A stretch of DNA of 35,933 nucleotides from Dehalococcoidia bacterium. Lineage in GTDB: Bacteria; Chloroflexota; Dehalococcoidia; Tepidiformales; Tepidiformaceae. The notes below the pieces were generated by a model. It was given only the letters and a program-made list of their open reading frames with translations. It was not told the DNA's origin and ran no database searches. A program made the translations under genes and the position numbers. The number at the start of each line of letters is the position of its first letter. Position 1 is the first letter of the stretch. The DNA lies in the NCBI GenBank assembly GCA_009839725.1, contig VXPF01000063.1:1-35933 (forward strand). The letters run 5' to 3'. Positions 9,327-35,933 of this stretch are shown one piece after another.

Positions 9327-11185
9327 GGCCCCTCGCGGATCACCCTTCGCAGGTCGATGGTGGAGCGGGGCTGCCCGAGGACGGCGCGCGCTACCTTGGA
9401 GGAGGCGTAGTAGGAGAGGCGCGTCTGCACCGGCGCGAACGCCTCCGAGCGGTACTCGCGACGCCAGCTGGAGAAGGTGCGCGCCCACCACTCCAGCAGG
9501 TAGGGATCGGAGACCTTCTCCAGGACCCCATCCCGAAACTTCCTGTCGGAGAGCAGGCGCAGCCCGTCGAGGATGGTGTGCTGCTCGTCCGCCGCCGTGG
9601 ACGGGTGGGCGTTCGCCTCGTGCAGCGTCTTGACCGTCTGCTCGAGGATGGACTGCATGCGCGGTCCCCACTGCTCCCAGAGACCCCTGGCCACGCGCAC
9701 GATCGAGTCGGCCGTGCGGTCGCGGTCCGAGAAGACGCGCGTGTCGAGGAGGTTGATGCCGGGAAGGCCTTCCTCCGCGCCGAGGTCGACGAGCCGCACC
9801 TGGTCGATGAGCGACTCGGGCACGTGCCCGAGGAGATCGGCCACGAGATCGGCGTGGGGGTCGACGACGACGATGGCGTCGCCGTCGCGCCCCGCCGCCT
9901 TCTCCAGCAGCTTGTGGATGATGAGGTGGCGCATGAGGGTGGACTTGCCCATCCGCGTGCGGGCCACGTAGAGGTGGTGGCGTCGCAGAAGGTCGCCGGC
10001 AAAGCGGACGGGGCTGGGCCTGCCCGCGGTGGTCTCGCCCACGAGGGCGCCGTCGCGCACGTCGCGTGGTGAGGGAAGGAGCACCTTCGCCCCCGAGCGC
10101 CCCACGAGGTGCGTCTCGTCCCTGGCGCCCGGCGGGTGCCAGAGGCATGCCGCCTCGCGCGCGCCGAGGACGCTGCGGCCGCCGAGGAATCCCCCACCGG
10201 AGGGATGCAGCCGCTCCGGGTCGGGCAGCACGGACCGCACGCGGCTCACGTCGAAGCGCGCCCCCAGGGGGTGATCGAAGTGGCGGTAGGCGGTGGCCAC
10301 CCGCTGGAGCAGCTCCCGCGCCCGCTTGCGCGCCGCCTTGCCATCCCCCTCGGGAAGGATGGCGGTCACCTGGATCTCGGCCTCGAAGGCCCGCTGTGAC
10401 ACCTTCTCCTTGATGAGGGCGGGGTCGTGGACACGGTTGCGGTTGCGCTGCCAGCGCGCCTTCGCCCAGCCCACCAGGCCGAGGACGGCGACGATGCCCA
10501 GCCCCGCCAGGACCGTCTTCCAGAGCTCGCCCGCCTGTACCCAGCGGTAACCCTGCACGGCGCCGAGCACGGCCACCGCGAGGAAGGCCGCCGCCATGCC
10601 GCCGTTCGCGTGTTGGCGCTCCTGGCTGACGGGTGCGGCCGGCTGTTGCTGGAGGGGGAGCGGCGGCTCGAAGGCCTTCGCCGCGTACCCCTGCGCCCAC
10701 CCCGGCCCGAGCGACTGCATCCGCAGCTGGGCCACGACGCGTTCGCCCTCCGCGGGAGCGGAGAGCGCGCCGAGGAGGGCGATGAGGGGATCGGAGCCGG
10801 GGTCAAGGAGGTCGTCGTCGCGGTAGGTGCGCAGGGGGACGTAGTCGGGACCGCTCGATCGCAGCGTCAGCGACCACGCCTGCTCCCCTTCGCGGAGGCG
10901 CAGCGGATCCTCCGCATTCGGCACGTCGTCGATGACGGCCTGGGGGTAGTGGGCGGTGAGCTGGCCGCGCACGGCCTGCTGGTCGAGGCAGCGGGCCATG
11001 AGGGTGACGCCGTCGGCGTTGCCCACCAGCTCGAGGGTGAAGGGCTCGGGGACGGCGATCGCCGCGAGCAGGTTCTCGACCCCGAGGAGGGTGCGCTCGC
11101 CGCTGCGCGGGGGCGTCACCTCGAGGAGGACGGGAGGCTGGGGTTCGGGCCTGCGGGAGAGCAGGTGCAGGGGGTTGAGTTGCAT
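9242..11185 (-). CDS. TraD/VirD4-like DNA translocation ATPase, C-terminally truncated
   Basis: The ATG at 11185 follows GAGGAACCCAGCC. Features: a soluble N-terminal domain, two membrane segments (about residues 197-216 and 222-240), a P-loop ARTRMGKST (about 408-416; the first Gly of the usual motif is Ala) and Walker B AIVVVDPHAD (about 437-446). Then come NLLDTRVFSDRDRTADSI and WGPRMQSILEQTVKTLHEAN, typical of conjugative coupling/transfer ATPases. Homology ends at STIDLRRVIREG (about residue 620). There the sequence jumps into the zinc ribbon of a recombinase in another frame and 27 meaningless codons follow. The lost part should hold the last third of the ATPase core. In an intact element it would pump DNA during conjugative transfer; here it is probably inactive. 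Confidence 0.82.
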   Translation of the reverse strand: MQLNPLHLLSRRPEPQPPVLLEVTPPRSGERTLLGVENLLAAIAVPEPFTLELVGNADGVTLMARCLDQQAVRGQLTAHYPQAVIDDVPNAEDPLRLREGEQAWSLTLRSSGPDYVPLRTYRDDDLLDPGSDPLIALLGALSAPAEGERVVAQLRMQSLGPGWAQGYAAKAFEPPLPLQQQPAAPVSQERQHANGGMAAAFLAVAVLGAVQGYRWVQAGELWKTVLAGLGIVAVLGLVGWAKARWQRNRNRVHDPALIKEKVSQRAFEAEIQVTAILPEGDGKAARKRARELLQRVATAYRHFDHPLGARFDVSRVRSVLPDPERLHPSGGGFLGGRSVLGAREAACLWHPPGARDETHLVGRSGAKVLLPSPRDVRDGALVGETTAGRPSPVRFAGDLLRRHHLYVARTRMGKSTLMRHLIIHKLLEKAAGRDGDAIVVVDPHADLVADLLGHVPESLIDQVRLVDLGAEEGLPGINLLDTRVFSDRDRTADSIVRVARGLWEQWGPRMQSILEQTVKTLHEANAHPSTAADEQHTILDGLRLLSDRKFRDGVLEKVSDPYLLEWWARTFSSWRREYRSEAFAPVQTRLSYYASSKVARAVLGQPRSTIDLRRVIREGPCVSGAARRSPPPRRRAAATPTTSVSPC

Positions 11186-11328
11186 GGCTGGGTTCCTCTC
11201 TATCGGTTGTCCCGCGCCTTCCCGGCGCCACCACGGGCGGCTCTGACAAGAGGACCAGAGCCCGCTCACCGGGACGGGCGCGGACGATCGAGTGTGGGGA
11301 ACCGGGGAGTTTCTGGTAATGGCTTTTG

Positions 11329-16646: not shown

Positions 16647-17513
16647 CTACTGCTGCTCGCGGGTGGCCTCAGCAGCGAGGGCATCGAACATGGCGTTCAC
16701 CCGGCCGAGCTCGCGCTCGCTGGCACACCCGGTGTCTCGCTCGATGACTTCGTACCCATGCCTGGTCTTGAGATTGCCGCTGTCGTCGCGCTCCTCCAGC
16801 CAGTACGTGAAGCTGCCGATCGTGAGCGTTGCTTCGGTGGCCTGATCAAAGAAGGTCACGGTGCCGTCCCACCACTGCCAGACGTCTCCCGGCGACCATT
16901 CGGCAGGGGGCGTGCCGACGCCGTCCGAGTTGGAGTCCCAGGGCCACGCAGTCAGCAATACCCCTTCAGGGATGACGAAGCGCGCCGCTGGCATGGGCTC
17001 ATATCCGTCGCGTCTGCGCACCTGCCATGCCGTACGGCCATCGCCCTTGGCGACCATGCCGTCGCCAAAGGTCGGTGGTCCGTCCCCGGCGTCCACCCAG
17101 GCGTATACCCAGCGCGACGCAACGGGGCCGCCATTTGCCAGCACGCCCCTTATCTCGAAGGGGTAGTACCCGGGCGCGAGCCCGGTGAGACGGTGGATGC
17201 GCACCCCACCACCGCCTGGAATCTCCACGAGGTCACCAGACTTCCTTTCCCGCTCCCACTCGTACCAGCTCTCGCCCTCGGCGAGGGGCTCCTGCGAGGT
17301 GCGGTACCACCACTGCTTCACCTCGGCGCCCTGCCATCGCCACGCCAGCATGAGCTCGCCGCGCTGCCCGTTTGCGACCACCCGCAGGTACACACCGTCG
17401 GTCGCTTCACAGCCCTCGGGCAAGGGGTGGAACTCACTGCTGCACGCGAGGGAAACCACGGCCACAGTCAGCACTCCGAGCACCACGGCGGGTCGCAGGA
17501 CGCTGTCGCTCAC
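16647..17513 (-). CDS. Lipoprotein with Fn3-like plus 'EGDG'-type module
   Basis: GTG start at 17513 chosen because it begins a lipoprotein signal: hydrophobic VLRPAVVLGVLTVAVVSLAC with lipobox LAC. The mature protein (about 265 residues) has a fibronectin-III-like part (VYLRVVANGQRGELMLAWRW ... IHRLTGLAPGYYPFEIRGVL). A second part follows, with MVAKGDGRTAWQVR, AARFVIPEGVLLTAW and FDALAAEA at the end. The same two-part module occurs twice in the LuxR-type membrane protein at 27098-28906. It carries no catalytic motif I can name and would sit on the outer face of the membrane. First gene beyond the mobile element; codon use is typical of its right-hand neighbours. Confidence 0.75.
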   Translation of the reverse strand: MSDSVLRPAVVLGVLTVAVVSLACSSEFHPLPEGCEATDGVYLRVVANGQRGELMLAWRWQGAEVKQWWYRTSQEPLAEGESWYEWERERKSGDLVEIPGGGGVRIHRLTGLAPGYYPFEIRGVLANGGPVASRWVYAWVDAGDGPPTFGDGMVAKGDGRTAWQVRRRDGYEPMPAARFVIPEGVLLTAWPWDSNSDGVGTPPAEWSPGDVWQWWDGTVTFFDQATEATLTIGSFTYWLEERDDSGNLKTRHGYEVIERDTGCASERELGRVNAMFDALAAEATREQQ

Positions 17514-17925
17514 CTCGGCGCCGACGTTTCTTGCCTGCTTCCGTGAGGCTTCAATACAAGACAAGGCCGTCGGTCGCTGCCGATCGATCGCGACCCCCGC
17601 TCCCGTCTCCGTTCTTGCACTCGGACCCTCCCGGTCAACCCGGCTGTTCGAAACTCGCGCCCGGGCCTGTTTCTCCACTCCGCTGCGACGACGAACAGGA
17701 TGCAGAGTACCCCGCCTCATGCCGAAGATGGGGGGGCGTTACAAATCATCACAAGAAGGAGAGCCAAAACTCACGTGACAGTAATGGCTGTGACGGCACA
17801 GTCCCGCGACTCTCCCGGTTCGTGGCTCGTCTCCCGCCCCGGTCGGCCCCTGCCGCTATACTGCGCCGACCCGTGGCGGGGACGCTCCGATAGCGCCGTC
17901 TCCGCCCTCCCCTGCGAGGTGAAGG
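17514..17925. promoter_or_regulatory. Divergent intergenic region; TATACT promoter of the sulfatase
   Basis: 412 bases without a supported gene between the leftward lipoprotein and the rightward sulfatase. TATACT (17857-17862) is a good -10 box giving a start near 17870 and a leader of about 55 bases; no clear -35 box. GAGGTGAAGG just before 17926 is the ribosome-binding site. Confidence 0.4.
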
Positions 17926-20175
17926 ATGAGCAGCGAACCGTATTTCCAGGGCCACATCGGCCGCTACACGAGCGAGTCGACCCCCTGGTGGCCCGATCCC
18001 CCCACGCCGGCCCCCGGAAGCCCCAACGTTGTCTTCGTCATGCTCGACGACGTCGGCTTCGCCCACCTCGGCTGTTACGGCTCCTCCATCGATACCCCCA
18101 ACATGGATCGCCTCGCGGCCAACGGGATCCGCTACCGCAACTTCCACACCACCACCATCTGCTCCCCCTCCCGCGCTTGCCTGCTGACGGGACGGAATCA
18201 CCACTCCGTCGGTATGCGAACCATCTCCAACTACGACACGGGTTTCCCCAGCGCCCGAGGCGCCATCTCTCCCAGCGCCGCCACCATCGCCCAGATGCTC
18301 CAGCAGACGGGCTACAACACGGCCGCCTTCGGCAAGTGGCACCTTGCCCCCATGGCCGACGGTTCGGCCGTCGGGCCCTTCCACGGGTGGCCCCTCGGCA
18401 AGGGCTTCGAGCGCTACTACGGCTTCCTCGACGCGCTCACCGACCAGTTCGCCCCCGAGCTCATCCTCGATAACCGCCACATCCCCTCACCCTCGGACCC
18501 GAGCTACCACCTGAGCGAGGCCATCGTCGACGAGGCCATCGAGTTCGTTCGCGACCAGACCTCCCTCTCGACCAGCCCCTTCTTCCTCTACGTCGCCTTT
18601 GGCGCCTGCCACTCCCCCCACCAGGCCCCACAGGAATACCTCGATAAGTACCGCGGCAAGTTCGACCAGGGCTGGGACGCCACGCGCGAGGCCTGGTTCC
18701 AGCGCCAGCTGGAGCTCGGCATCGTCCCCGAGGGAACGCAGCTCGCCCCCCGCAACAACGGCGTCCCCGCCTGGGACGAGCTTTCCGAGGACGAGAAGGC
18801 CGTGCGCGCCCGTCTGCAGGAAGCGTTCGCCGCCATGCTCGACCACATGGATCACCAGATCGGACGCCTCGCCGACTACCTGGAGGAGACCGGCGAGCTC
18901 GACAACACCCTCTTCGTCGTCGTTTCCGACAACGGCGCGAGCCAGGAGGGCGGTCCCCTCGGGGTCGTCAACGAGGGCCGCTTCTACAACCAGCTTCCGG
19001 CGAGCGAGGAGTACAACCAGGCCAACATCGACGAGATCGGCGGCCCTGCCTCCCACACCAACTACCCCTGGGGCTGGGCGCAGGTGGGGAATACGCCCCT
19101 CAAGCGCTACAAGCAGAACACCCATGGGGGCGGCATCCGCGACCCGCTCATCATCCACTGGCCGGACCGCATCAAGGACGCCGGCTCGATCCGCCCGCAG
19201 TTCCACCACATTTCGGACATCGTGCCCACGGTCCTTGAGGTGCTGGGAGTGGAAGCGCCCGAGACCTACCAGGGCGTTCCCCAGCTCCCCATCCACGGCA
19301 CGAGCATGCTCTACACGTTCGACTCCAGCGAGGAGCCCACGCGTAAGCGCAACCAGCACTTCGAGATGTTCGGCCACCGCGGCATCTGGCACGACGGCTG
19401 GAAGGCGGTCACCTTCCACGCCCCGGGCGGCTCCTTCGAGGACGACCAGTGGGAGCTGTACCACCTCGACGAGGACTTCTCCGAGTGCAACGACCTCGCC
19501 GAGTCGGAGCCCGCGAAGCTCCAGGAGATGATCGAGCACTGGTGGATCGAAGCCGCCAAATACGACGTCCTGCCCCTCGAGGACGGGCTCCGAGGCGCCC
19601 GCGGGACGCCGCCCAAGAAGGGCTCGCCCCAGGACCGCACCAGCTTCGTCTATCGCCAGGGCATGGCCCATACCCCCACGAACGCCGCTGCCGACGTCCG
19701 CAACCGCGACTACACCATCACCGTCGAGCTCGCGCGGGAAAGCGAGGCGCAGGAGGGCGTGCTCATCGCCCACGGCGGGATCACCGGCGGGTACTCCCTC
19801 TTCATCAAGGACAACCGCCTCGTGCACGAGTACAGCTACGTAGGCGAGCGCTACCGCATCGTCTCCGATGCGCCCGTACCCGTCGGCGCGTCAGTCGTCA
19901 CGTTCGAGTTCACGAAGACGGACGAGCTGGCGGGAACGGCCATCCTCACGATGAACGGTCGCCAGGTTGGAAGCGGGGACCTTCCCGCCACCCTCGGCGG
20001 CATGTTCGCCATCGAGGGGCTCGACGTCGGGCAGGACCTCTACACGGCCGTCAGCGAGGACTACGAGGTGCCCTTCGCCTTCTCCGGCTCGATCGCCGAG
20101 GTGCGCCTCGAGCTTGGGAGCAACCAGGTGCTCGACCGCGAGGCCGAGCTGCGCGGCCGCATCATCGCCGAGTAG
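17926..20175 (+). CDS. Arylsulfatase with C-terminal beta-sandwich domain
   Basis: 749 residues. Sulfatase family: metal-binding VVFVMLDDVGF (DD at about 41-42), formylglycine site CSPSRACLLTGRNHH with Cys79, FGKWHL, VVSDNGASQEGG and K/H residues in PLKRYKQNTHGGGIRDPLI. It hydrolyses sulfate esters once Cys79 is oxidised to formylglycine. Residues ~605-745 form an extra domain resembling concanavalin/LamG-like sandwiches (VLIAHGGITGGYSLFIKDNRLVHEYSYVGERYRIVSD...), known in PAS-type sulfatases. No signal peptide is visible, so it is probably cytoplasmic. It ends 9 bases from the stop of the convergent formylglycine-generating enzyme at 20185, its likely activator. Confidence 0.93.
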   Translation: MSSEPYFQGHIGRYTSESTPWWPDPPTPAPGSPNVVFVMLDDVGFAHLGCYGSSIDTPNMDRLAANGIRYRNFHTTTICSPSRACLLTGRNHHSVGMRTISNYDTGFPSARGAISPSAATIAQMLQQTGYNTAAFGKWHLAPMADGSAVGPFHGWPLGKGFERYYGFLDALTDQFAPELILDNRHIPSPSDPSYHLSEAIVDEAIEFVRDQTSLSTSPFFLYVAFGACHSPHQAPQEYLDKYRGKFDQGWDATREAWFQRQLELGIVPEGTQLAPRNNGVPAWDELSEDEKAVRARLQEAFAAMLDHMDHQIGRLADYLEETGELDNTLFVVVSDNGASQEGGPLGVVNEGRFYNQLPASEEYNQANIDEIGGPASHTNYPWGWAQVGNTPLKRYKQNTHGGGIRDPLIIHWPDRIKDAGSIRPQFHHISDIVPTVLEVLGVEAPETYQGVPQLPIHGTSMLYTFDSSEEPTRKRNQHFEMFGHRGIWHDGWKAVTFHAPGGSFEDDQWELYHLDEDFSECNDLAESEPAKLQEMIEHWWIEAAKYDVLPLEDGLRGARGTPPKKGSPQDRTSFVYRQGMAHTPTNAAADVRNRDYTITVELARESEAQEGVLIAHGGITGGYSLFIKDNRLVHEYSYVGERYRIVSDAPVPVGASVVTFEFTKTDELAGTAILTMNGRQVGSGDLPATLGGMFAIEGLDVGQDLYTAVSEDYEVPFAFSGSIAEVRLELGSNQVLDREAELRGRIIAE

Positions 20176-24016: not shown

Positions 24017-24915
24017 GCGCGGTCACCCTGGACGCCGAGCTCGAGCTTTCGTGGTGGGGGCGCAAGACCCGCGAGTCGCTGCTCTTCTCGACCATCAACG
24101 GGATCATCCGCAACCCCCAGGGCATGGTCGCGATCATCGGCCTTGTGCTGCTGGTCGTTGGGGCCGTGGGCGCTCCGGTCATCGCCCAGTACGACCCTGT
24201 CGATCAGGGGGCCGCCGGACGCTTCCTGGCCCCGTCAACTGACCACTGGTTCGGCACGGACGAGCTCCGTCGCGACCTGTTCTCCCGCACCCTTTTCGGG
24301 CTGCGAGCGTCCCTCGCCGTGAGCCTCATCAGCGTCGCCGTCGGTACGTCGATTGGTGTGACAATCGGCTTCCTTGCCGGGTTCATCGGCGGGCTTCTCG
24401 AAGCAGCGGCCATGCGCCTCGTCGATGCCTTGCTGGCGTTTCCCGGCCTGATTGCCGCTCTGGCCATCCTCAACATCCTCGGTCCTGGCGTGCGCAGCAT
24501 CGGGATCGCGATCGCGTTCTTCACCATCCCCGCCTTCGCGCGGCTGGCGCGCGCCCAGATGCTCGCCGAGAAGAACAAAGACTATGTGCTCGCGTCCCAG
24601 GCCCTGGGCGCCAGTCCGCAGCGCGTCGTCTTCCGCCACATCGCCATTAACGCCTTCCCGCCCCTCCTCACCCAGATGGCCCTGCTGATGGCCGTGGCCG
24701 TGCTCATCACCGCCGCTCTCAGCTTCCTCGGACTCGGCGACAACCCGCCCGCGCCCTCCCTCGGCGGCCTCCTCAACGTGAGCCGCCAGTACCTTCGCGA
24801 GGCCTGGTGGTACGCCGTCTTCCCGGGCGCCGTCTTCGCCCTCCTCCTCTTCTCCCTCAACCTCCTCTCCGACGCCATCAACGAGGCTTCAAGCCCCTAC
24901 CAGAGGCGTCGCTAA
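24013..24915 (+). CDS. ABC importer permease, DppC type
   Basis: 300 residues; its ATG overlaps the stop of the preceding gene (ATGA). An N-terminal OppC-type segment (GIIRNPQGMVAIIGLVLLVVGAVGAPVIAQYDP) is followed by HWFGTDELRRDLFSRTLFGLRASLAVSLISV. The EAA loop is KDYVLASQALGASPQRVVFRHIAINAFPPLL. Several membrane segments. Together with the DppB-type partner it makes the pore. The DppD/DppF ATPases usually encoded next are absent here; a sulfatase gene follows instead, so the ATPases must be shared or encoded elsewhere. Confidence 0.92.
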   Translation: MSAVTLDAELELSWWGRKTRESLLFSTINGIIRNPQGMVAIIGLVLLVVGAVGAPVIAQYDPVDQGAAGRFLAPSTDHWFGTDELRRDLFSRTLFGLRASLAVSLISVAVGTSIGVTIGFLAGFIGGLLEAAAMRLVDALLAFPGLIAALAILNILGPGVRSIGIAIAFFTIPAFARLARAQMLAEKNKDYVLASQALGASPQRVVFRHIAINAFPPLLTQMALLMAVAVLITAALSFLGLGDNPPAPSLGGLLNVSRQYLREAWWYAVFPGAVFALLLFSLNLLSDAINEASSPYQRRR

Positions 24916-24959
24916 CGGCCATCGCCCGATGGAGCGCTCACCAAACACAGGAGGATCCC

Positions 24960-26480
24960 GTGCCCGCTGACTCCCGCCCCAACATCGTTGTCATCATGGC
25001 CGACCAGCACCGCGCCGATGCCCTCGGCTGCTACGGGAACGACATCATCCGCACGCCCAACATCGATCGCCTCGCGGCCGAAGGCGTGCGCTTTGGCCGC
25101 GCCTTCTGCCAGGGACCCCTCTGCATGCCAGCCCGCTGGTCCCTCCTCACGGGCCGCTACGTCCGCGACCACGGCGTGTTCGAGAACGACTGGGACATGA
25201 CCCAGGACCTCCCCAACCTCGCCCAGCACCTCCAGCAGGCCGGCTACTACACGAGCTGCATCGGCAAGATGCACCTCTTCGCCGACGAAACCCTCGTCTG
25301 CGGCCGCCCCGAGCTCGCCTCCGACCCCTTCGTCACCCCCCGCTACCGCGCCGTCGGCTTCGATGAGCCTCACCCCGGCCCCGAGAAGAACGGCGTCATG
25401 GGCCTCGACTGCGAGTACGTCGACCACCTGAAGGAGCGGGGCCTCTTCGAGAGCTACGGGGAGTGGTTCCACCTGCGCGCCTACCCCAAGAAGACGCGCG
25501 ACCACCTCGGCCTCCCCATGTGGTTCCCCGAGTCCACCCCCCTCCCCAACGAGGACTACCTCGATACCTGGACCGGCCAGCAGGTCGTCGACTGGATCGA
25601 CAACTACGACGGCGACCAGCCCTTCTTCCAGTGGGTCGGCTTCCCCGGGCCGCACGAGCCCCACGACGCTCCGAAGGACTACGCCGACCTCTACCGCAAC
25701 GTCGAGATCCCCACCGGCGAGCGCATTCCCCCCGAGGTCCCCGAGTCGGGTCCCCTCCACACCCTCATGCGCTGGCTCCAGACCACCGCCCAGTGGGAGG
25801 GGCTCACCGACGACATCGTCCAGCTCCTCACCCGCTACTACTATGCCAACATCACCGCCATCGACGACCAGGTCGGAGCCATCGTCGAAGCACTCGATCG
25901 CAAGGGCATCCTCGACAACACCTGGATCATCTACACCGCCGACCACGGCGAGATGATGGGCGACCACTGGATGCTCTGGAAGATGCTCTTCTACGAGCAG
26001 TCCGCCACCGTGCCCCTCATCATCCGCCCGCCCGGCGGCATGGAGAGCCACACCGTCGACGGCATCGTCGAGCACGTCGACGTGACCGCAACGATCGAGG
26101 CGCTGACCGGCATCGCGCCCCTCCCCGACAACGAGGGCAACTCCCTCCTCGGCCACGTCGACGGCAGCGGCGGCCCCACCCGCGATGTTGCCCACAGCGA
26201 GAACTACGGCTTCGGCATGTTCGCCACCGACCGCTACAAGCTCGTCGTCTTCGAGGACACGAAGGAACCCGTGCAGCTCTTCGACCTGCAGGAGGACCCC
26301 GAGGAGAACGTCAACGTCGTCGCCGACCCCGCCTACGCGGACGTGGTCGCCCAGATGCTGAGCGACCACGTCGAGCCCTTCCTTGCGATACCACCAAAGC
26401 GCCCGGCGAAGGGAATCTGGGAGGTTCAGGCCGGCCGCTACGAGGGCAACCGCCACCTCGCGGTGCGCTACCCCAAGTAG
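24960..26480 (+). CDS. Second sulfatase
   Basis: 506 residues from the GTG at 24960, which follows CAGGAGGATCCC; the open frame upstream overlaps the permease and is not used. Sulfatase family: RPNIVVIMADQHRADALGCYG, formylglycine motif LCMPARWSLLTGRY with Cys55 (Ala replaces the usual Ser of CxPSR, still CxPxR), IGKMHLF, YTADHGEMMGDHWMLWK and a C-terminal substrate region. Shorter than the sulfatase at 17926 and without the extra sandwich domain. No signal peptide, so probably cytoplasmic, acting on imported substrate. It ends the importer operon (45 bases after the DppC-type gene). Activation by the FGE at 20185 is expected. Confidence 0.92.
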   Translation: MPADSRPNIVVIMADQHRADALGCYGNDIIRTPNIDRLAAEGVRFGRAFCQGPLCMPARWSLLTGRYVRDHGVFENDWDMTQDLPNLAQHLQQAGYYTSCIGKMHLFADETLVCGRPELASDPFVTPRYRAVGFDEPHPGPEKNGVMGLDCEYVDHLKERGLFESYGEWFHLRAYPKKTRDHLGLPMWFPESTPLPNEDYLDTWTGQQVVDWIDNYDGDQPFFQWVGFPGPHEPHDAPKDYADLYRNVEIPTGERIPPEVPESGPLHTLMRWLQTTAQWEGLTDDIVQLLTRYYYANITAIDDQVGAIVEALDRKGILDNTWIIYTADHGEMMGDHWMLWKMLFYEQSATVPLIIRPPGGMESHTVDGIVEHVDVTATIEALTGIAPLPDNEGNSLLGHVDGSGGPTRDVAHSENYGFGMFATDRYKLVVFEDTKEPVQLFDLQEDPEENVNVVADPAYADVVAQMLSDHVEPFLAIPPKRPAKGIWEVQAGRYEGNRHLAVRYPK

Positions 26481-26559
26481 CCACGTCGGCGACCCCGTGA
26501 CCGGAGATTGCCGCGGGCACTCCTCTGCTGTTGGGTCAACGAGCGTCCGGCAGGCGTGC

Positions 26560-26572
26560 TAGCCTTGCACCC
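26560..26572 (+). promoter_or_regulatory. -10 box for a leaderless start
   Basis: TAGCCT (26560-26565) followed by 7 bases and the GTG at 26573, without a Shine-Dalgarno sequence. Confidence 0.4.
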
Positions 26573-27028
26573 GTGAAGCGCCTCGCCCCCCTCGCCGCCT
26601 CCATCATGGCCGGGCTGGCCTCCGCCTCCGGCGCGGCCATCTGCAGTCCAACGAATCCCCGGTCTGACGAAAGGGTTTGTGTCGAGAGCCTCATCAGGAC
26701 CGCCAGGATGCCTGCGTACTCCTTCCCCTTCGACACGGGGGTGGACCCCGAACTGGCCAGGGCTTTCAACCCCTGGTATCCGGGAACAAGAGAGGTGCCC
26801 GCCCGCCAGCTTGTGCTCCTGCACGACAGCGGTCCTCGCCGCCAGGCCGGCGACCCCGAGCCCTCCCCCGTGCAGCCCGTCGAGGTGAACGCCGAACCCA
26901 TGCGTTCCCTGCCGGTGGCGACCCCGGTACCCGAGCAGCCTGCGCGGCGCGGCATGTCTCCCGTCGTTTGGACGCTGGCAATCGTGTCCATCCTGGCGCT
27001 GCTGCTCCTCTCCTCCCCACCCGTCTAG
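26573..27028 (+). CDS. Hypothetical membrane protein
   Basis: 151 residues from GTG 26573. The N-terminus (VKRLAPLAASIMAGLASASGAAIC) could be a weak signal peptide ending near Cys. The middle is polar (ICSPTNPRSDERVCVESLIRTARMPAYSFPFDTGVDPELARAF), then a Pro-rich stretch and a C-terminal membrane segment MSPVVWTLAIVSILALLLLS. I do not recognise the family. It precedes the LuxR-type membrane protein by 69 bases on the same strand and has its own TAGCCT box. Confidence 0.5.
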   Translation: MKRLAPLAASIMAGLASASGAAICSPTNPRSDERVCVESLIRTARMPAYSFPFDTGVDPELARAFNPWYPGTREVPARQLVLLHDSGPRRQAGDPEPSPVQPVEVNAEPMRSLPVATPVPEQPARRGMSPVVWTLAIVSILALLLLSSPPV

Positions 27029-27085
27029 GGGCCCGGTGGATCCCGTCCCGTTGGGTCGGGTGATGTAATTCCGAGGTTCGACTGC

Positions 27086-27097
27086 TAGCGTGGCCCG
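27086..27097 (+). promoter_or_regulatory. -10 box for a leaderless start
   Basis: TAGCGT (27086-27091) followed by 6 bases and the GTG at 27098, without a Shine-Dalgarno sequence. Confidence 0.4.
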
Positions 27098-28906
27098 GTG
27101 CCACGGAGAGGCCGCCCCCGCCATCCCGGCCTGCTCACGCCCGGCGAGCAGCGAGTCCTTGAGGAGCTGCGCCAGGGCGGCACGAACGCCGAGATTGCCG
27201 TGCGCCTCCGACTCAGCCCGGAGACGGTCAAGACCCACATCGCACGCATGCTCTCCAAGCTCGGCCTTGAGGACCGCCATGAGCTTGCCTCGTGGCGCCC
27301 CGAGTCAGAGCGAAACCGACTGCGTGCGTTGCTCGCGATGCCCATCGCCCTCGGCTCCTTCGCTCGCCCCCTCGTCTGGGCGGGTGCGGGAACACTGATG
27401 CTGGCTGGCGCCGCTGCCGTGGCTGGTGTACTTGTGTTTGTGCCCGGTCAGGGCGAGCCGGAGCCCGCTTCCCCGTCGGCGACTCCGTCCTCAATTGCTC
27501 CCACAGTTGCGGCCACGCCTTCGCCCCAACCCACCCCGGCCGCGACTGTGTCCCCTACGCCCCCCTCACGAGCTACGCCCTCGCCGGAAGACACGTCCCC
27601 GCCCCACGAGCCAGCAGACATCGCCGGCGACTACATCGGCCACCAGTTAACCGAGCTGCTGGTCATCGAAGAGGGGGCCGTCGAATCCCTGCTCCTCGAG
27701 TGGACGGGAGCGCCCAGCGGCGTCACGCACTGGCAGTACCGCTACCGCGAGTGGGCGGGGCAGCCGCTGCCATGGTCAGCCTGGCAGGCTGTTCCCGATA
27801 GCGATGCGGCTACCCGGAGCTACAGGGTGAGCGTACCCCCTGGCGCATACGAGTTCGAGGTGCGTGGCGTGGGCCCCGCCACGGTGGGCTTGTCGTCCGT
27901 GCCTGCGCTGGAGGACCCCTGGCACGACTTCGAATCGTTCGGAATCTCGCGTGAGGCGGGGGAGCCTGTAGGGGTGGGGCCGTCGCGGATGGTGGAAGGC
28001 GACGGCGTGACCGCCTGGTGGGTAGGCAACTTCACCCTCGTAATCCCCGACGGCGTGCGAGTTTTCGGGAAGCCAGGGTTCCAGCAGGCAACATGTGAGG
28101 TCGAATACCCGGACTGCATCACCGATGGTGTCTTTATTTCCCACCACCCCACCGGCTCCACCTTGCTGTTCAGCGTCGATGGTGACCAGGTGGAACGCTA
28201 CATGTCGCAGACCCTGCCCGCGAGCGTGACCGCCGCCGTTAACGCGTTGTTCGACCAACTCATCGCGTCGATGCGGCTGGAAGCGGAGACGCCTGAGCTC
28301 ATGGTCATCAGTGATGGTGCCACCGACGCACTGATCCTTGAGTGGACGGGCGTGCCCCCCGGCACCACGAGCTGGCAGTACAGGCTCTACACACACCTCG
28401 AAGGCCGACTGCTGACCGCGGGCTTGTGGACACACATCCCCAATAGCACGGCCTCAACGCGCAGCTACCGGCTTACCGGCCTCGCCGCTGGCACTGACTA
28501 CGAAGTTGAGGTGCGAGCCATGATCGGAGCGGAAGCCGGGGTCGTCTCGTCGCCGCGATGGCAGTGCTGCCGCTGGTTCACAAGCGGCAGCATCACCGCC
28601 GAGAGCGGAAGGCTCCCCAACATCGGGCGCTATCAGGTGATCGAAGGTGATGGCATCACGAAGTGGCGGGTGTTTGGCCTGGGCTGGCTCGTCACCATCC
28701 CCGAAGGGATGCGAGTCGCCCTCGTGGGCGGGGGCATCGTCGATGGCAGCATGCTGCCGGTGGGCCTCAGGGAGATCGAGAGCAACTCCACCATCATGTT
28801 CGATCCCCTTGATGGGAGCGAGATCGAGCGGAGCATCGACGCCCCTCCAGCGGGAGACGTGGGGGCGCTGTTCGACCAAATCGCCGAATCAGTCGAGCAT
28901 CGCTAG
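27098..28906 (+). CDS. LuxR-type HTH, transmembrane, duplicated ectodomain protein
   Basis: 602 residues, GTG start. Residues 13-66 are a LuxR/GerE helix-turn-helix (LTPGEQRVLEELRQGGTNAEIAVRLRLSPETVKTHIARMLSKLGLEDRHELASW). Residues ~88-116 are one membrane segment, ~117-175 a Pro/Ser/Thr linker. Then two copies of a ~200-residue module follow (about 185-392 and 399-597). Each has a fibronectin-III-like half (LLLEWTGAPSGVTHWQYRYR / LILEWTGVPPGTTSWQYRLY ... YEFEVRG / YEVEVRA). The second half has EGDGVTAWWVGNFTLVIPDG / EGDGITKWRVFGLGWLVTIPEG and ends ALFDQL / ALFDQI. Topology predicts DNA binding inside and modules outside, i.e. a one-component membrane-spanning regulator. The lipoprotein at 16647 carries one copy of the module. 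No response-regulator receiver domain. Confidence 0.82.
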   Translation: MPRRGRPRHPGLLTPGEQRVLEELRQGGTNAEIAVRLRLSPETVKTHIARMLSKLGLEDRHELASWRPESERNRLRALLAMPIALGSFARPLVWAGAGTLMLAGAAAVAGVLVFVPGQGEPEPASPSATPSSIAPTVAATPSPQPTPAATVSPTPPSRATPSPEDTSPPHEPADIAGDYIGHQLTELLVIEEGAVESLLLEWTGAPSGVTHWQYRYREWAGQPLPWSAWQAVPDSDAATRSYRVSVPPGAYEFEVRGVGPATVGLSSVPALEDPWHDFESFGISREAGEPVGVGPSRMVEGDGVTAWWVGNFTLVIPDGVRVFGKPGFQQATCEVEYPDCITDGVFISHHPTGSTLLFSVDGDQVERYMSQTLPASVTAAVNALFDQLIASMRLEAETPELMVISDGATDALILEWTGVPPGTTSWQYRLYTHLEGRLLTAGLWTHIPNSTASTRSYRLTGLAAGTDYEVEVRAMIGAEAGVVSSPRWQCCRWFTSGSITAESGRLPNIGRYQVIEGDGITKWRVFGLGWLVTIPEGMRVALVGGGIVDGSMLPVGLREIESNSTIMFDPLDGSEIERSIDAPPAGDVGALFDQIAESVEHR

Positions 28907-29031: not shown

Positions 29032-29424
29032 CTACGGGATCACCAGCTCCCAGCCGATGCGCAGGTTGGAGCAGTTGTCGTTGATGCGCGGGTTCGCGGC
29101 CATGAGCGAGGCCGTGGTCACGCCGTGATCTTGCGCGATGCGCCAGCACACGTCACCCGGCCTGACCGTGTAGACGCCTCCTCGGGAACCAGTCGTGGCT
29201 GCTGCTGGACGGGCGTCGGTCGTGGGGGTGGTGGCGGCGGGCGTCGTCGGGTCGGGCGTCGGGGTCTGCCGCGTCGCCGGGATCGGCACCTCCCTGGGAG
29301 TGGCTGGCGGCGTGGAGCCGAGGTCGGGCGGGGCGGCGCCCGGACCGCCTTCGTAGCACCCCGCCAGGGAGACAACCGCTGCGAGGACCAGGGCAACTGA
29401 AAGGACCTGGGTGACCCACCTCAT
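29032..29424 (-). CDS. LysM-domain lipoprotein
   Basis: 130 residues. The ATG at 29424 follows GGGAGGAGCAACC. Lipoprotein signal (VTQVLSVALVLAAVVSLAGC, lipobox LAGC), then a Pro/Thr/Ala-rich linker. A C-terminal LysM domain follows (YTVRPGDVCWRIAQDHGVTTASLMAANPRINDNCSNLRIGWELVIP), which in its family binds peptidoglycan or related glycans. The two Cys residues in the domain could form a disulfide. Probably an envelope protein anchored to the membrane and touching the wall. Nothing links it functionally to the neighbouring PKS. Confidence 0.85.
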   Translation of the reverse strand: MRWVTQVLSVALVLAAVVSLAGCYEGGPGAAPPDLGSTPPATPREVPIPATRQTPTPDPTTPAATTPTTDARPAAATTGSRGGVYTVRPGDVCWRIAQDHGVTTASLMAANPRINDNCSNLRIGWELVIP

Positions 29425-29603
29425 GGTTGCTCCTCCCGGGGCTCGCGCCCTGTCCACCGAGTGGAGAGAGCGCACCGCACATCAGGACCGTAGCAACGGA
29501 AGGCTCGAATTACCCCGTCCGTTTTGGGCAATTGGCGACTCTGCTTGCGTCCCGCCCCGCAAGGCTAGACCGGGCGAGATCCCATCCGGCAACAGGCAGG
29601 CTT

Positions 29604-29635: not shown

Positions 29636-32600
29636 TCAGGCGCTCGTCGTGGTGTCGGGCTTTCTCGGCTGCACCCAGAACCGGCGGCGCTGGAACGGGT
29701 ACCCCGGCAGCGAGATGCGTCGCCGCTCCTCCCCCGCGTAGAGCCCCGCGAAGTCGACCGACTCCCCCGCTCCGTAGGCCTCTGCCGCCTCAGCGACCCC
29801 GCCTTCCCCTTCGATCTCCTCGCCAGCGTCGGCCTCGGGTCCCGAGCCAACGTCTCCGGCCGCCACCGCTTCCAGCCCCTCCCGAAGCGATGTGACATCC
29901 CGGAACGTGAGCCCCGCCCTCTGGTCGAAGTGCCGCCGGCCCACCCCGGCCGTGTACGCCATGTCGGCGAGGAGCGTATCGTCCGCCCCGAGCTCATCCC
30001 CACGCTCCTCAAGCCAGGCGAGGTACCGCCCCGCCAGCGCTTGCAGCGCCTCCACCGACCTCGCCGAGAGGGGCAGGAGCCTCTCCGTGCTTTCGTCGAT
30101 GGTGTCAGGCGTGGCCGTGGCGGTGTCGGGCTCGTCGTAGCCCTCCACGACGACATGTGCGTTCGCCCCCGAGATCGCGAACGTGTTGACCGCCGCAACC
30201 GGCGGTCGCTCGGCGTTCACGGGCCACGGCGTCGCCTCCGCGGTTACCTGCACGGGCGCCTTCTCCCACTCGATGTCGGGCGTCGGGGTTTCGAAGTGCA
30301 GGTGCCTGGGGATCACGCCCGCCTTCATGGCGAGCACGGTCTTGATGAGCCCGGCAACCGCCGACGCTGCCTCAAGGTGGCCGATGTTCGTCTTCACCGA
30401 CCCCAGGAGTAGCGGGCGCTCCGCATCCCGGCCCTGTCCGTACACCGATACCGCCGCGTTCATCTCGGCCACATCGCCGATGACCGAGGCCGAACCGTGC
30501 GCCTCCAGGTAGTCGATGTCCGCCCCCGCCAAACCTGCCCGCGAAAGCGCTTCCTCCATCACCCGCATCTGCGCCGGCCCGCTGGGCACGGTGAGGCCCA
30601 ACCCGGCCCCGTTCTGGTTGACCGCCGATCCCCTGACCACCCCCCAGATGCGGTCCCCGTCCGCCTCCGCCTCGCTCAGCCGCTTGAGCAACACGACGCC
30701 GCAGCCCTCGCCGCGGACGTACCCGTCGGCGGAGGCGTCGAAGGGAGCGCATCGCCCCTGCTTCGAGAGCATCGTCGACTCCTCCAGGAACTGGGCCGTC
30801 GCCGTCGCGAGCACGGCGTTCGCGCCGCCCGCGATCGCGAGGTCGATCTCGCCACGCTGGAGGGCCGTCACGGCCTGGTGGACCGCCACCAGCGAGGACG
30901 CGCAGGCCAGGTCCACGGGCACCGCTGGCCCCTCGAGCCCCAGGGTGAAGGCGACCCGCCCGACCGCCACGCCGGCGTTCGTCCCGTAGTAGCTGCCTTC
31001 TCGGCCGGCGGCCGCCGCAACGCGCCGGTACTCGCCGGGGCCCAGCCCCGCGTACACACCCGTACGGCTCCCGCTCAACCCCTCGGGGTCGATCCCCGCG
31101 TCCTCGATCGCCTGCCAGCTCGTCTCGAGCAGCAGCCGCTGCGTCGGGTCCATGCCCCGAGCGTCGATGGGCTGAATCCTGAAGAAGCTGGCGTCGAATT
31201 CGTCGATCCCCTCGAGATACGCCCCCCACCGGTCCCGGGCCCGCTCCGCCGCGGGATCGCCCGCGATCCCGGTCCACGAGCCCGAATCCTGCCGTCCGTC
31301 CGTCACCGCGTTGCCGCCCGAGGCCAGCAGCTCCCAGAAGGCGTCGAGGTTCTCCCCGCCGGGGAAGCGGCAGGCCATCCCCACGATCGCGATCCCTTCC
31401 CCCTCTAACGGAGCGGCCGCACGCCGCTGCCGTGGGCGCTCCCCTGGCGCCGCCGAGACTTCGCCGCCCTCGCCAAGCTCCCCGGCCAGGTGCTCCGCCA
31501 GGCTGGCGATGCTCGGGTAGTCGAACACGGCCGTGTTCGAGACCACGTAGTCGCCGGCGAACGCGCGATTCATCCGGTTCCGCAGCTCCACCGCCATCAG
31601 CGAGTCCATCCCCAGGTCGGAGAAGTCGATCGACGGCATTGGGGTGGTCGGCATCCGCATCACGGTCTGTATCTCCCCCTGCAGGAACCCCACCAGCGCC
31701 TCCTCCCGGTCCTCCCGCGAGGCGTACCGCAGACCGGCGAACAACTCCGCCGCCGAGTCCCCGTCAGCTCCCTCCTCGCCTTCCCCGGTGGCCAGCAGGT
31801 TCTCCAGCAGCGGCGACCGCTGCTCGACGTTCTCGGAGAACACCTGCCAGTCCAGCGAGGCCACCAGCCCCGTCGTCGCGTCCTGCCGCATGAGGCGCTC
31901 CAGCGCCTGCAGCCCCTGCTGGGCGTTGATCCACCCGGTGCCCGCTGCCTCGATCTGCCGCCCGATCCGCTGCCGCTGCTCCTCGGCCTCCCCGATCCCC
32001 TCCCATGCGCCCCAGGCGATCGACTGCCCCGGCAGGCCCAGCGCACGGCGGTGCCCCGCGAGCTGATCGAGGAAGGCGTTGGCGGCCGAGTGGTTCGCCT
32101 GCCCCGGATTGCCGAGCACCCCTGCCACACTTGAGAACAGCACGAACAGGTCCAGGTCGCGGTCGATCGTCGCGCGATGGAGGTGCCACCCGCCCAGCAC
32201 CTTCGGCCACAGCACTTCCTCGAAGCGCTCCCAGCTCTGGTTCGTGAGCGCCGCGTCCGAGAGCACGCCCACGCTGTGGATCACGCCCCCGAGCGGCGGG
32301 TACGCCTCGTCCATGCGCGCCAGCATCGCGTCGATGGCTTCGCTGTCGGTCACGTCCGCAAGCTCCACCTCCACCCGCACGCCTCGCGCCCGCAGCGCCG
32401 CGATCGCCTCTTCCGCTTCGGGGTCCGGATCGCGACGCCCGTTCAGGACGATCACGCCACCGCCCAGCTCTGCCAGCCACCCCGCCACCGCGCAGCCGAT
32501 GCCGCCGAGGCCGCCCGTCACGAGGTAGGTCCGGTCTTCCCGCAACTGCCCCGTCTCGATCGCCGAGTTCGTCAGCACGATCTTCCCGATGTGGCGCGCC

Positions 32601-35600
32601 GCCTGCATGTACTTGATCGCCGGCTCCGCCTCCGCCAGCGGCCACGTGATGTGGTTCAACGGCCCCAGTTCCCCAGCTTCGACTCCCTCCATCACCCGCC
32701 GCAGGGCCGCGCCCGGGACCTCCGGCTCGTCTTCCTTCACCACGTCCACCATGAGGATGAAGTACGTCACGTCCGGCCGCCGCGCAGCCATCTCCTCCTC
32801 CGTCAGGATGTCGACCCGCGCCATCTCCGCGAACCGCCCGCCCTCCTTCAGGCAGGAAAGGCTCGCATCGATGAACCCCGGCCCCGTGAGGCTGTTCAGC
32901 ACCACGTCCACGCCCTCGCCGCCCGTGGCCTCCAGGATCTCCTCCGCGAACGCCGTCTGGCGGCTATCGAAGACGTGCTCGACGCCGAGCGCCCGCACGG
33001 CCGCCTGCTTCGGCTCGCTCGCCGTCGCGAACACCTCGGCGCCTGCGGCCAGGGCCAGCTGCACCGCCGCCTGTCCCACACCGCCCGATGCCGCGTGAAT
33101 CAGCACGCGGTCGCCCGCTTTCAGCTCGACCGCGTCGAACGAGAGCGCCGCCGAGATGAACGCCGTCGGGATCGTCGCGAGCGCGGACAGGGGTACGCCT
33201 GCCGGCGCCCGCGTGATCAGCTCCTCGTGCATCACCGTCTCCGACCGGAACGTCGTCAGCGCCAGCCCCAGCACCCGGTCCCCAACCGCGACCGTCGTGA
33301 CGTCCTCCCCGACCTCGATCACGCGGCCGCAGAACTCCCCTCCCAGCTCGTCCTCGAAGACCCCGAGCGCCACGAACATGTCCCGGAAGTTGAGGCCCAC
33401 CGCCTCCACCGCCACGCGTACCTCGCGCGGTTCGAGGGGTTGTTCGGGCAGCGGCTCGAGCCGCAGCCGTTCGAGTGACCCGCCTGCATCCGGCTTCATC
33501 GCCCAGCCCGTCTCGTCCGGTAGTGGCAGCCGCCCGGGCGCGTCGGCGGCCCGCACGAGGCGCGCCGCCTGCCGCCGCCCCAGCCGGTAGGCGATGTGCG
33601 TCTCGTCGTCGGGATGGAGCAGCTCGTTCGCGATCTCCGCGACCGGCGTCTCCGCTCCCGGATCGAGGTCGATCATCCTCGGCTGCAGCTGGGGTGCCTC
33701 CCGCTCTACCACCTTGCCCATGCCCCACAAGAGTGCCCCTGTCAGCTCCCCGAGCCGCTCTCGCTCCAGCACCTGCCCGCCCCGCGTCAGGAACCACACG
33801 CCCTTCGCCGGTGCCGCATCCGCATCCGACAGCCCCTGCACGAGCGCGAGGGCGCTCGCCGTCGACCGCTTCGCATCCGCGGCAAGCTCACCGGTCGTGG
33901 ACTCCGCCCCGTGGCCATCCAGCGCCAGCAAGTGAACGACGCCGTTCAGCGGCGTGTCTTCGGGCAGCCCCTCGATGAGCGCCCGCCACGACTCCCGGCT
34001 CTCCGTGTCGACGGACGCCTTCACGTCGTCCCCGCCGTCCCTTGCAACGACCACGGTCTGGTTGTGCGCCGCCAGTTCCGCCGCCAGATCGGCCGCAACG
34101 CCGCTCTCGTCCGTTGCCAGGATCCAGGCGCCTGCCGGCTCGGTCACGTCCGCCGGACCCTGCGCCAGGATCACGCCGCGATCCGGGCGGTCCGTCGCGC
34201 CCGTGCCCAGCACCTCCGCCTCAACGAAGCCCGCGTCTCCCAGGGCCTGCTTCCAGACCTCCGGGCTCGCCAGTGCGTGCCGGGGCCGGTACTCGTCGGC
34301 GAACCGCCACCAGCCGTCCAGCTGTCCGAACGTCAGGTCCAGCCACCCCTGCCCGCGCAGGTTCTCCAGCGCCACCAGGTGCCCCGAGGGCGCGAGCACG
34401 TCCGCGCAGTGCGCCAGCGTTTCGTTCAGGTACCGGGTCGCGTGCAGCACGTTCGAGGCGATCACGAGGTCGTACCCGTGCGGGTCGAACCCTTGCTCGA
34501 TGGGGTCCTGCTCGATGTCGAGCACGCGGTAGTCGATCGAGGCCTCGCTCCCGCCGAACAGCCCTTCCGCCTCCGCGAAGAACCCCGCCGAGATGTCCGT
34601 GTAGGTGTAGTCGTAGCCGCCCTCCGGGAGCTCCGGCAGCACCACGGCGGTCGCCGAGCCCGTCCCCGCGCCCACCTCCAGCACCCGCAGCCGCCGCCCT
34701 GCCGGCAAGTCGCGCAGGAGTGTCGAGACCGCGTCCGCGAGCATCCGGTTCGCCGCCCGCGCCACCGGCGCGAGCTTGTACAGGTCGGCCGCGCTCGGCT
34801 CCCCGCTGCTGAACAGCAGGATCAGCGGGTCCTCCTCCCCCGTGAGCACGTCCCCGAGCGCCGCCCCGCTGCGGCGGAACAGCCCGATCTCGGTCGAACC
34901 GTGGTCGTACAGCCCCGCGATCTCATCCGCGAACGCCTGCGGGTCGGCGGGAAGCGCCTCCGGAAGCGGGTCTCCGGCGCCCACGTTCACGACGAACCCG
35001 TCGCCCGCCTCCTCCAGCACCCCCGCCGCCGTCAGCAACTCGCACATGCGGCGGAACACCCGCTGGTGGATGTCCAGCACGTTCAGCCGTTCCCGCAGCG
35101 CCTCCGGCTCGATCGTCTCCCCGGCCTTCCGCTGCCACCCCAGCCCCTCCAGCGCATTCAGCGCTGTCGACCACGCCATCCGCTCCAGGTCGTTCAGCAG
35201 GTCGCCGCGCGTCTCAACCCCGACGCCCTCGCCCCCGAGGTACTCGGAGAACGGAGCCGACTCCCCTGCGACAGCCGCGGGACCGGGCAGGAAGTCGGCG
35301 GGAGGCATGCCGGGCGGCAGGTACCGGTCCTGCCAGATGACCTCGTACAGCAGCTCCTGGACCGACTCCGTCCCCGAGAGCAGCGCCGCACGTGTGGCCC
35401 GCTTGGCGATGGAGCCGTCCAGCCCGCCGATCTCGATGCCCTCCGGCGTGTACAGCCGCAGGTCGCCGCTCAGCACCTCGCGGGGGCTTGTGGCGGCGTC
35501 GTCCCCATTCGCGCCGCCGCCCTCTCGCATGCGGGCATGGCAGATGACCCGCTCAGGCAGCGCCTGCGTCAACCAGAACCGCTCCCATGCGAACGGCAGG

Positions 35601-35933
35601 TAGGTGTCGCCCTCCTCCACGCCCGAGAGCGTTCGCGCCGCCCCCACCACCTGCAGGAGTCCGTCCAGCAGGATCGGGTGCGCCCCCACCCCGGCGCCGT
35701 CCACGCCCTCCGGCAGCGCGACCTCGCCTACGGCCTCCCCGTCCCCGCACCACAGCCGCTGTAGCGTGCGGAACTGCGGACCGAGCTGGATGCTCGCTTC
35801 GGCCCGCGCCCGGTAGAACGCCTGCGGGTCCTCCTCGTCGAGAGAAGCAGTCAACTCCTCCAGCTCGATCCGCTCGCCCGGCGGCGCCCCTCCGCCCGCC
35901 GACGCCTGCCCCTCCGCGTGCAGCGTCCACCCC
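29636..35933 (-). CDS. Type I polyketide synthase, 3' part: DH-MT-psiKR-ER-KR-ACP-KS
   Basis: The frame is open to the right edge, so the gene continues beyond it. Residue numbers count from a TTG at 35854. The 26 codons before it (WTLHAEGQ...) also belong to the DH. DH ~1-160 (HPILLDGLLQ, Asp64). C-methyltransferase ~250-550 (SAM motif VLEVGAGTGS, 391-400). Structural KR ~575-765. Enoyl reductase ~795-1097 (LNFRDMF, HAASGGVGQAA). Ketoreductase ~1108-1290 (TGGLGGIG; GQANHSAANAFLD has His where Tyr is usual). ACP ~1375-1460 (LGMDSLMAVEL, Ser1418). Ketosynthase ~1484-1905 (DLACASS, Cys1651; EAHGSAS, His1786; NIGHLEA, His1826). After the KS come the KS-AT linker (LLPLSARSVEALQALAGRYL..., 1926-2001) and directly the post-AT linker (VDFAGLYAGEERRRISLPGYPFQRRRFWV). 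The acyltransferase is missing, and there is no thioesterase. It builds a methylated, fully reduced chain segment. Confidence 0.92.
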   Translation of the reverse strand, partial: GWTLHAEGQASAGGGAPPGERIELEELTASLDEEDPQAFYRARAEASIQLGPQFRTLQRLWCGDGEAVGEVALPEGVDGAGVGAHPILLDGLLQVVGAARTLSGVEEGDTYLPFAWERFWLTQALPERVICHARMREGGGANGDDAATSPREVLSGDLRLYTPEGIEIGGLDGSIAKRATRAALLSGTESVQELLYEVIWQDRYLPPGMPPADFLPGPAAVAGESAPFSEYLGGEGVGVETRGDLLNDLERMAWSTALNALEGLGWQRKAGETIEPEALRERLNVLDIHQRVFRRMCELLTAAGVLEEAGDGFVVNVGAGDPLPEALPADPQAFADEIAGLYDHGSTEIGLFRRSGAALGDVLTGEEDPLILLFSSGEPSAADLYKLAPVARAANRMLADAVSTLLRDLPAGRRLRVLEVGAGTGSATAVVLPELPEGGYDYTYTDISAGFFAEAEGLFGGSEASIDYRVLDIEQDPIEQGFDPHGYDLVIASNVLHATRYLNETLAHCADVLAPSGHLVALENLRGQGWLDLTFGQLDGWWRFADEYRPRHALASPEVWKQALGDAGFVEAEVLGTGATDRPDRGVILAQGPADVTEPAGAWILATDESGVAADLAAELAAHNQTVVVARDGGDDVKASVDTESRESWRALIEGLPEDTPLNGVVHLLALDGHGAESTTGELAADAKRSTASALALVQGLSDADAAPAKGVWFLTRGGQVLERERLGELTGALLWGMGKVVEREAPQLQPRMIDLDPGAETPVAEIANELLHPDDETHIAYRLGRRQAARLVRAADAPGRLPLPDETGWAMKPDAGGSLERLRLEPLPEQPLEPREVRVAVEAVGLNFRDMFVALGVFEDELGGEFCGRVIEVGEDVTTVAVGDRVLGLALTTFRSETVMHEELITRAPAGVPLSALATIPTAFISAALSFDAVELKAGDRVLIHAASGGVGQAAVQLALAAGAEVFATASEPKQAAVRALGVEHVFDSRQTAFAEEILEATGGEGVDVVLNSLTGPGFIDASLSCLKEGGRFAEMARVDILTEEEMAARRPDVTYFILMVDVVKEDEPEVPGAALRRVMEGVEAGELGPLNHITWPLAEAEPAIKYMQAARHIGKIVLTNSAIETGQLREDRTYLVTGGLGGIGCAVAGWLAELGGGVIVLNGRRDPDPEAEEAIAALRARGVRVEVELADVTDSEAIDAMLARMDEAYPPLGGVIHSVGVLSDAALTNQSWERFEEVLWPKVLGGWHLHRATIDRDLDLFVLFSSVAGVLGNPGQANHSAANAFLDQLAGHRRALGLPGQSIAWGAWEGIGEAEEQRQRIGRQIEAAGTGWINAQQGLQALERLMRQDATTGLVASLDWQVFSENVEQRSPLLENLLATGEGEEGADGDSAAELFAGLRYASREDREEALVGFLQGEIQTVMRMPTTPMPSIDFSDLGMDSLMAVELRNRMNRAFAGDYVVSNTAVFDYPSIASLAEHLAGELGEGGEVSAAPGERPRQRRAAAPLEGEGIAIVGMACRFPGGENLDAFWELLASGGNAVTDGRQDSGSWTGIAGDPAAERARDRWGAYLEGIDEFDASFFRIQPIDARGMDPTQRLLLETSWQAIEDAGIDPEGLSGSRTGVYAGLGPGEYRRVAAAAGREGSYYGTNAGVAVGRVAFTLGLEGPAVPVDLACASSLVAVHQAVTALQRGEIDLAIAGGANAVLATATAQFLEESTMLSKQGRCAPFDASADGYVRGEGCGVVLLKRLSEAEADGDRIWGVVRGSAVNQNGAGLGLTVPSGPAQMRVMEEALSRAGLAGADIDYLEAHGSASVIGDVAEMNAAVSVYGQGRDAERPLLLGSVKTNIGHLEAASAVAGLIKTVLAMKAGVIPRHLHFETPTPDIEWEKAPVQVTAEATPWPVNAERPPVAAVNTFAISGANAHVVVEGYDEPDTATATPDTIDESTERLLPLSARSVEALQALAGRYLAWLEERGDELGADDTLLADMAYTAGVGRRHFDQRAGLTFRDVTSLREGLEAVAAGDVGSGPEADAGEEIEGEGGVAEAAEAYGAGESVDFAGLYAGEERRRISLPGYPFQRRRFWVQPRKPDTTTSA

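Follow-up and report, generated by a model that had tools for sequence, protein, structure and literature searches.

A predicted membrane-anchored LuxR-type regulator with Fn3-IPEG modules and a shared promoter box: a candidate one-component sensor in a Dehalococcoidia lineage

The 35,933-nucleotide window analysed here, a whole contig (C11) of a 2.83-Mb assembly in 160 contigs, encodes a 602-residue protein that joins a LuxR-type DNA-binding head to a predicted membrane span and two tandem modules. On balance it is probably a one-component sensor in the membrane that recognises the promoter of its own gene. This reading draws on the domains of the protein, its one hydrophobic span, its paralogues and their ectodomain swaps, a shared promoter, and a correspondence between promoter box and recognition helix, all of them read from sequence. 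The modular LuxR-headed family, its promoter box, and the previously unnamed second half of each module, for which the name IPEG is coined here, are new. The named relatives are Dehalococcoidia/Chloroflexi MAGs (e.g. IRC3_bin_22, SB0661_bin_22, and APA_bin_86), and the bin names, together with publications on Chloroflexota of sponges that carry Fn3 and LRR genes (PMC8163846, PMC6306507), indicate that the host lineage is probably one of sponge symbionts. We advance tentatively the broader proposal that this sponge-symbiont Dehalococcoidia lineage possesses a LuxR-type membrane receptor family with own-promoter boxes matched to the recognition helices and with exchanged outer domains, including the new-fold IPEG domain.

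Architecture of the regulator and its modules

The contig contains no N, and the frame remains open for 602 codons from its GTG with a coding-like codon-position GC (0.67/0.54/0.79). The GTG start is supported by the -10-like element, which ends 6 nt upstream as it does in the paralogues. A reading as two genes was ruled out by the open frame, the shared architecture, and the promoter at the start, and the layout given in the initial annotation, a GerE/LuxR helix-turn-helix (HTH), one hydrophobic span, a Pro/Thr linker, and two tandem modules in a single gene, was confirmed (Table 1).

Table 1. Features of the regulator locus and related genes in the window.
Feature	Position	Strand	Basis
Second Fn3 + IPEG gene, diverged, lipoprotein-like, without HTH	16650..17720	-	Module profile, E 4e-11
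Small ORF with C-terminal hydrophobic segment, upstream neighbour	26531..27028	+	53% identity, 155 aa, to homologue
Promoter box GTCGGGTGATGTAATTC, A-type	27055..27071	+	Motif comparison with family genes
-10-like TAGCGT, 14 nt after box, 6 nt before GTG (leaderless)	27086..27091	+	Spacing
Regulator gene, 602 aa, GTG start	27098..28906	+	Open frame; start backed by promoter spacing
Basic N-terminal arm RRGRPRHPG, AT-hook-like RGRP core	27104..27130	+	Inspection only
GerE/LuxR HTH (residues 13-65), recognition helix SPETVKTHI	27134..27292	+	Pfam GerE; NarL-HTH alignment
Single predicted membrane span, residues 97-115	27386..27442	+	Hydropathy script; N-in from arginine distribution
Pro/Thr/Ser-rich linker, residues 116-182	27443..27643	+	Sequence; common to most paralogues
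Module 1, Fn3-like + IPEG (IPEG 27986-28282)	27644..28282	+	Module profile 5e-72; IPEG half E 1.7e-21
Module 2, Fn3 (28292-28540) + IPEG (28634-28903)	28286..28903	+	Pfam fn3, module profile 3e-84, AlphaFold
LysM lipoprotein-like gene, convergent neighbour	29032..29475	-	Pfam LysM 7.1e-13
G-type box AACGGACGGGGTAATTC of LysM gene	29507..29523	-	Only other full box with -10 in contig

The head was assigned to GerE by Pfam (E 1.5e-14, 53.7 bits against a gathering cut-off of 23.5), and it aligns with the NarL HTH (chain 1je8) and also matches other DNA-binding heads. Pfam listed GerE and other HTH families up to E 10, Trans_reg_C not among them, and detected no receiver domain (Response_reg, REC). 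The GRP of the N-terminal arm is invariant across the 11 family genes of this genome; Pfam AT_hook gave no match to the arm. PADLOC matches span the HTH alone, and a defence-system reading was rejected.

The predicted span is the sole hydrophobic segment of the protein (Kyte-Doolittle mean 2.20), with arginine-rich sequence before it and acidic or neutral sequence after it, an arrangement that would place the HTH in the cytoplasm and the modules outside. With its long flexible linker and single span, the protein would also suit regulated proteolysis, in which ligand binding by the modules would trigger a cut close to the span and set free a soluble HTH regulator. We consider this quite unlikely, given that regulators like ToxR and CadC work while membrane-bound (PMC10269533).

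One profile matches both modules (residues 183-395 and 397-602), but since both had been included in it, these matches show register and not independent detection. The two are ∼38% identical to one another and similarly close to modules of other proteins. The first half is Fn3 according to Pfam (fn3 at residues 399-481 of module 2, E 1.4e-9, 38.5 bits against a gathering score of 25), profile comparison with PDB chains, and fold (Foldseek matches to Fn3 structures), module 1 being assigned through the shared module profile only. The second half, IPEG, comprises ∼90 amino acids with the marks (E)GDG..W, IPxG, SGS, and LFDxIxAS, and the motifs EGDG-x-T-x-W and IPDG/IPEG are present as initially described. 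AlphaFold returned confident models of the whole of module 2 (pLDDT 91.4, pTM 0.86) and of IPEG alone (pLDDT 91.7, pTM 0.81). IPEG had no match in Pfam, NCBIfam, or PDB sequences, and its model had none by Foldseek in PDB below E 0.5 or in BFVD below E 0.3, for which reason its identification with a known domain was rejected. The initial reading of the first half as Fn3-like was supported, as was that of the second half as lacking a named family. The refuting condition set there, a match of the modules to a named domain family, holds for the Fn3 half of each module and not for the other.

Within the genus, 8 of 9 genomes encode IPEG, compared with 0 of the 29 other genomes of the family; across the class, the total is 25 of 393 sampled genomes. 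The carriers elsewhere are lipoproteins and secreted proteins with LRR, Fn3, or another unnamed domain, and complete Fn3-IPEG modules joined to an HTH occur only in the 602-aa regulator, in one genome; L088 and L089 combine an HTH and a span with a weak partial IPEG match (E 0.002). The second Fn3 and IPEG gene of the contig has a lipoprotein-type signal and a tree end branch of 4.65, and is not preceded by the promoter box.

The paralogue family and its promoter box

A genome search with the protein identified at least 11 genes in this genome (the regulator included) that have the 115-aa stretch of head and anchor in common but differ in their ectodomains, among which are RCC1, peptidase-like, LRR, and propeller types. 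Many more such genes exist in the genus, and the initial description of a LuxR head in the membrane as unusual fails here. Across 48 family members, Pfam found GerE in all 48, RCC1 in 13, PD40 in 4, SH3 in 4, CarboxypepD in 3, LRR in 2, and fn3 in 1, namely the present regulator. Ectodomain type switches at least 12 times on the head tree, which has weak support in the clade of the regulator. L095 shares 83% DNA identity with the regulator over 225 nt of box and start region, including an identical 17-nt box, and has an ectodomain of RCC1 repeats instead of Fn3-IPEG modules.

When the heads of the 11 genes are aligned, 25 columns are invariant, and every one of them precedes the span. This conservation bears on the possibility that the outer part, in adhesion or matrix binding, is the real function and the HTH a remnant. 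Fn3 and IPEG are indeed also present on HTH-less lipoproteins, and L216 (313-2415), from another family of the class, retains a box-like promoter and a MERNRGGR start like that of the regulators while lacking an HTH match, so that it resembles a regulator whose head has been lost. However, no other part of the family is as well conserved as the HTH, which matches NarL and other DNA-binding heads, and we regard a remnant HTH as highly improbable.

The family genes share a recurring element, consisting of a box CGGGTRRGGWAAHYC, 14-15 nt, TANNNT, 6 nt, and the start codon, in otherwise unrelated flanks. As a putative leaderless promoter, CGGGTRRGGWAAYYC-N14/15-TANNNT-N6-start, it precedes 36 of the 39 family genes of the genus, a few of the 36 deviating from TANNNT at the -10; the box is also found upstream of family genes in other genera. 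The three genes without it are members of the most divergent head group. The standard box is absent from L024, L108, and L104, regulators with divergent heads, and L024 and L108 carry GGGCCKTCCTGCGGAGCGCTG in its place. In the SPYTVKYH subgroup (L164, L166, L167, and L168), a second box-like copy is located ∼18-20 bp upstream of the first, a spacing near two helical turns. The box has no clear dyad, and a palindromic operator is not claimed because the dyad score is weak.

The pattern CGGGTRRBGWAAHYC had 30 matches in nine genomes, compared to 2 for the reversed control. In 0.96 Mb of genus DNA, a sample biased toward the regulator family, 26 of 90 leaderless-type starts scored 9-10 of 10 for GGGGWAAHYC, and 0 did so after shuffling. 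The composite pattern was matched 24 times in this genome, compared to 2 in controls, and most of the inspected clear-frame genes behind it encode proteins that are secreted, located in the membrane, or lipoproteins. The contig has exactly two full boxes accompanied by a -10. One belongs to the regulator and the other to the convergent LysM gene, whose promoter (29478-29523, minus strand) fits the composite pattern without mismatch and is kept with one mismatch in G007. The box of the regulator occupies the -35 position of its promoter. As a general rule, the box as a plain housekeeping -35 was rejected, since leaderless metabolic genes have the same -10 without a box. Two further candidate relations were discarded: the ectodomain type of a regulator matches that of box-bearing surface genes inconsistently, and most module-bearing lipoproteins, considered as targets of the present regulator, lack the box.

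Two box types could be distinguished by the base in column 8, which is related to residue X of TV(K/R)XH in the recognition helix: T or S occurs with A (13 of 13) and Y or F with G (28 of 28). Residue X aligns with the position adjoining a lysine in NarL, and we take it to be the equivalent of V189, which contacts a base in NarL-DNA structures. In this genome the A-type pattern GGGKGABGWAAHYC has five matches, all of them before family genes (reversed control 0), and 9 of its 12 matches across the genus are at family genes, the other three having no promoter-like context. Once the membrane segment was allowed for, the distance between boxes was correlated with the distance between HTHs (partial r 0.44, by a permutation that corrects only partly for relatedness), compared to 0.10 for the spacer and 0.17 for the flank. 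Box base 8 follows the recognition-helix residue, though possibly through one switch: the change between T/S and Y/F can be a single event on the head tree, and the perfect match may therefore represent one or few independent changes.

The position of the box, where a sigma factor reads the -35, suggests a different explanation, in which it serves an alternative sigma factor as -35, or else is bound by a common regulator, to drive a surface-protein regulon, and the membrane LuxR proteins are members of the regulon that bind elsewhere. Lipoprotein, secreted, and membrane genes that lack an HTH are preceded by this promoter too, and the GGWAAY of the box resembles some ECF -35 elements. G-type boxes precede HTH-less genes, so some other reader would act on boxes of this type. 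Nevertheless, the -10 is of the housekeeping TANNNT type, the A-type box precedes family regulators only, and base 8 splits exactly according to HTH class, a split that a common reader does not predict. We therefore regard this explanation as rather unlikely.

Genomic setting and proposed working

Five relatives share the left flank of the locus (ABC transporter and sulfatase) at 87-91% identity, and the likeness stops at the sulfatase stop codon. In G005 both flanks are present and enclose 2.1 kb with other genes and no regulator, which indicates that the regulator occupies a variable slot. The small upstream ORF is a possible partner of the regulator; its homologue in G007 is convergent to a different family regulator (L146). 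Elsewhere in the contig, two sulfatase genes (17926-20175 and 24807-26480) lie on either side of a peptide/oligopeptide ABC transporter, a large serine recombinase adjoins a DUF87/HerA-like ATPase gene in a possible mobile element (7087-11269), and a polyketide synthase with DH, MT, ER, KR, ACP, and KS domains (29636-35932, minus strand) runs off the contig end.

In the sensor that we favour, the LuxR/NarL-type HTH would lie in the cytoplasm, one span would cross the membrane, and the Pro/Thr stalk would hold the two Fn3-IPEG modules outside the cell. Ligand binding or clustering of the modules would change HTH dimerisation, and this in turn would alter how the HTH holds the -35 box in the leaderless promoter of its own gene, giving a local feedback loop. 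The family varies through swaps of the outer part, with head, anchor, and promoter kept. Topology, dimerisation, binding of the HTH to its own box, the sign of regulation, and a ligand are inferred, and with them the mechanism from ligand to promoter.

If true, the family would amount to a prokaryotic repertoire of receptors, each a single protein, that recognise surface ligands. For membrane one-component regulators, neither ligands nor targets are easily identified. Comparison of head, promoter, and outer part across ∼40 family genes yields testable candidate operator sites without prior expression data. The family also hints at how uncultured Chloroflexota, probably associated with sponges, may perceive their environment via Fn3, LRR, and RCC1 surface domains, and IPEG adds a confident model with no match in the libraries searched.

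Comparison with known systems

The first half of each module is like Fibronectin type III (PF00041), but is followed here by IPEG, which has no known relative. The head belongs to the same HTH family (1je8, GerE) as the soluble NarL/LuxR regulators, whereas the present protein has no receiver or autoinducer domain and is predicted to be membrane-anchored. With ToxR and CadC it shares a cytoplasmic DNA-binding head, a single span, and a C-terminal outer sensor, as far as predicted, which supports the ToxR-like layout initially proposed and makes the suggested direct line from envelope to DNA plausible. ToxR and CadC heads are winged-helix Trans_reg_C domains. Here the head is GerE, and a ToxS-like partner would be hypothetical; the regulator thus resembles the ToxR type in its presumed working but is not one.

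Demey et al. (2023, PMC10269533) describe the transmembrane transcription regulators, a kind established well enough to count further against the supposed rarity of the layout. The characterised examples include ToxR, CadC, BcrR, and others, and LuxR and GerE are not mentioned in the main text of that work. Like them, the 602-aa regulator combines a DNA-binding domain with at least one membrane span, in its case predicted, in one protein with no receiver or kinase, and its sequence would place it among them. It differs from the characterised members in its LuxR head, and in belonging to a family whose outer parts are exchangeable and whose genes share a promoter box.
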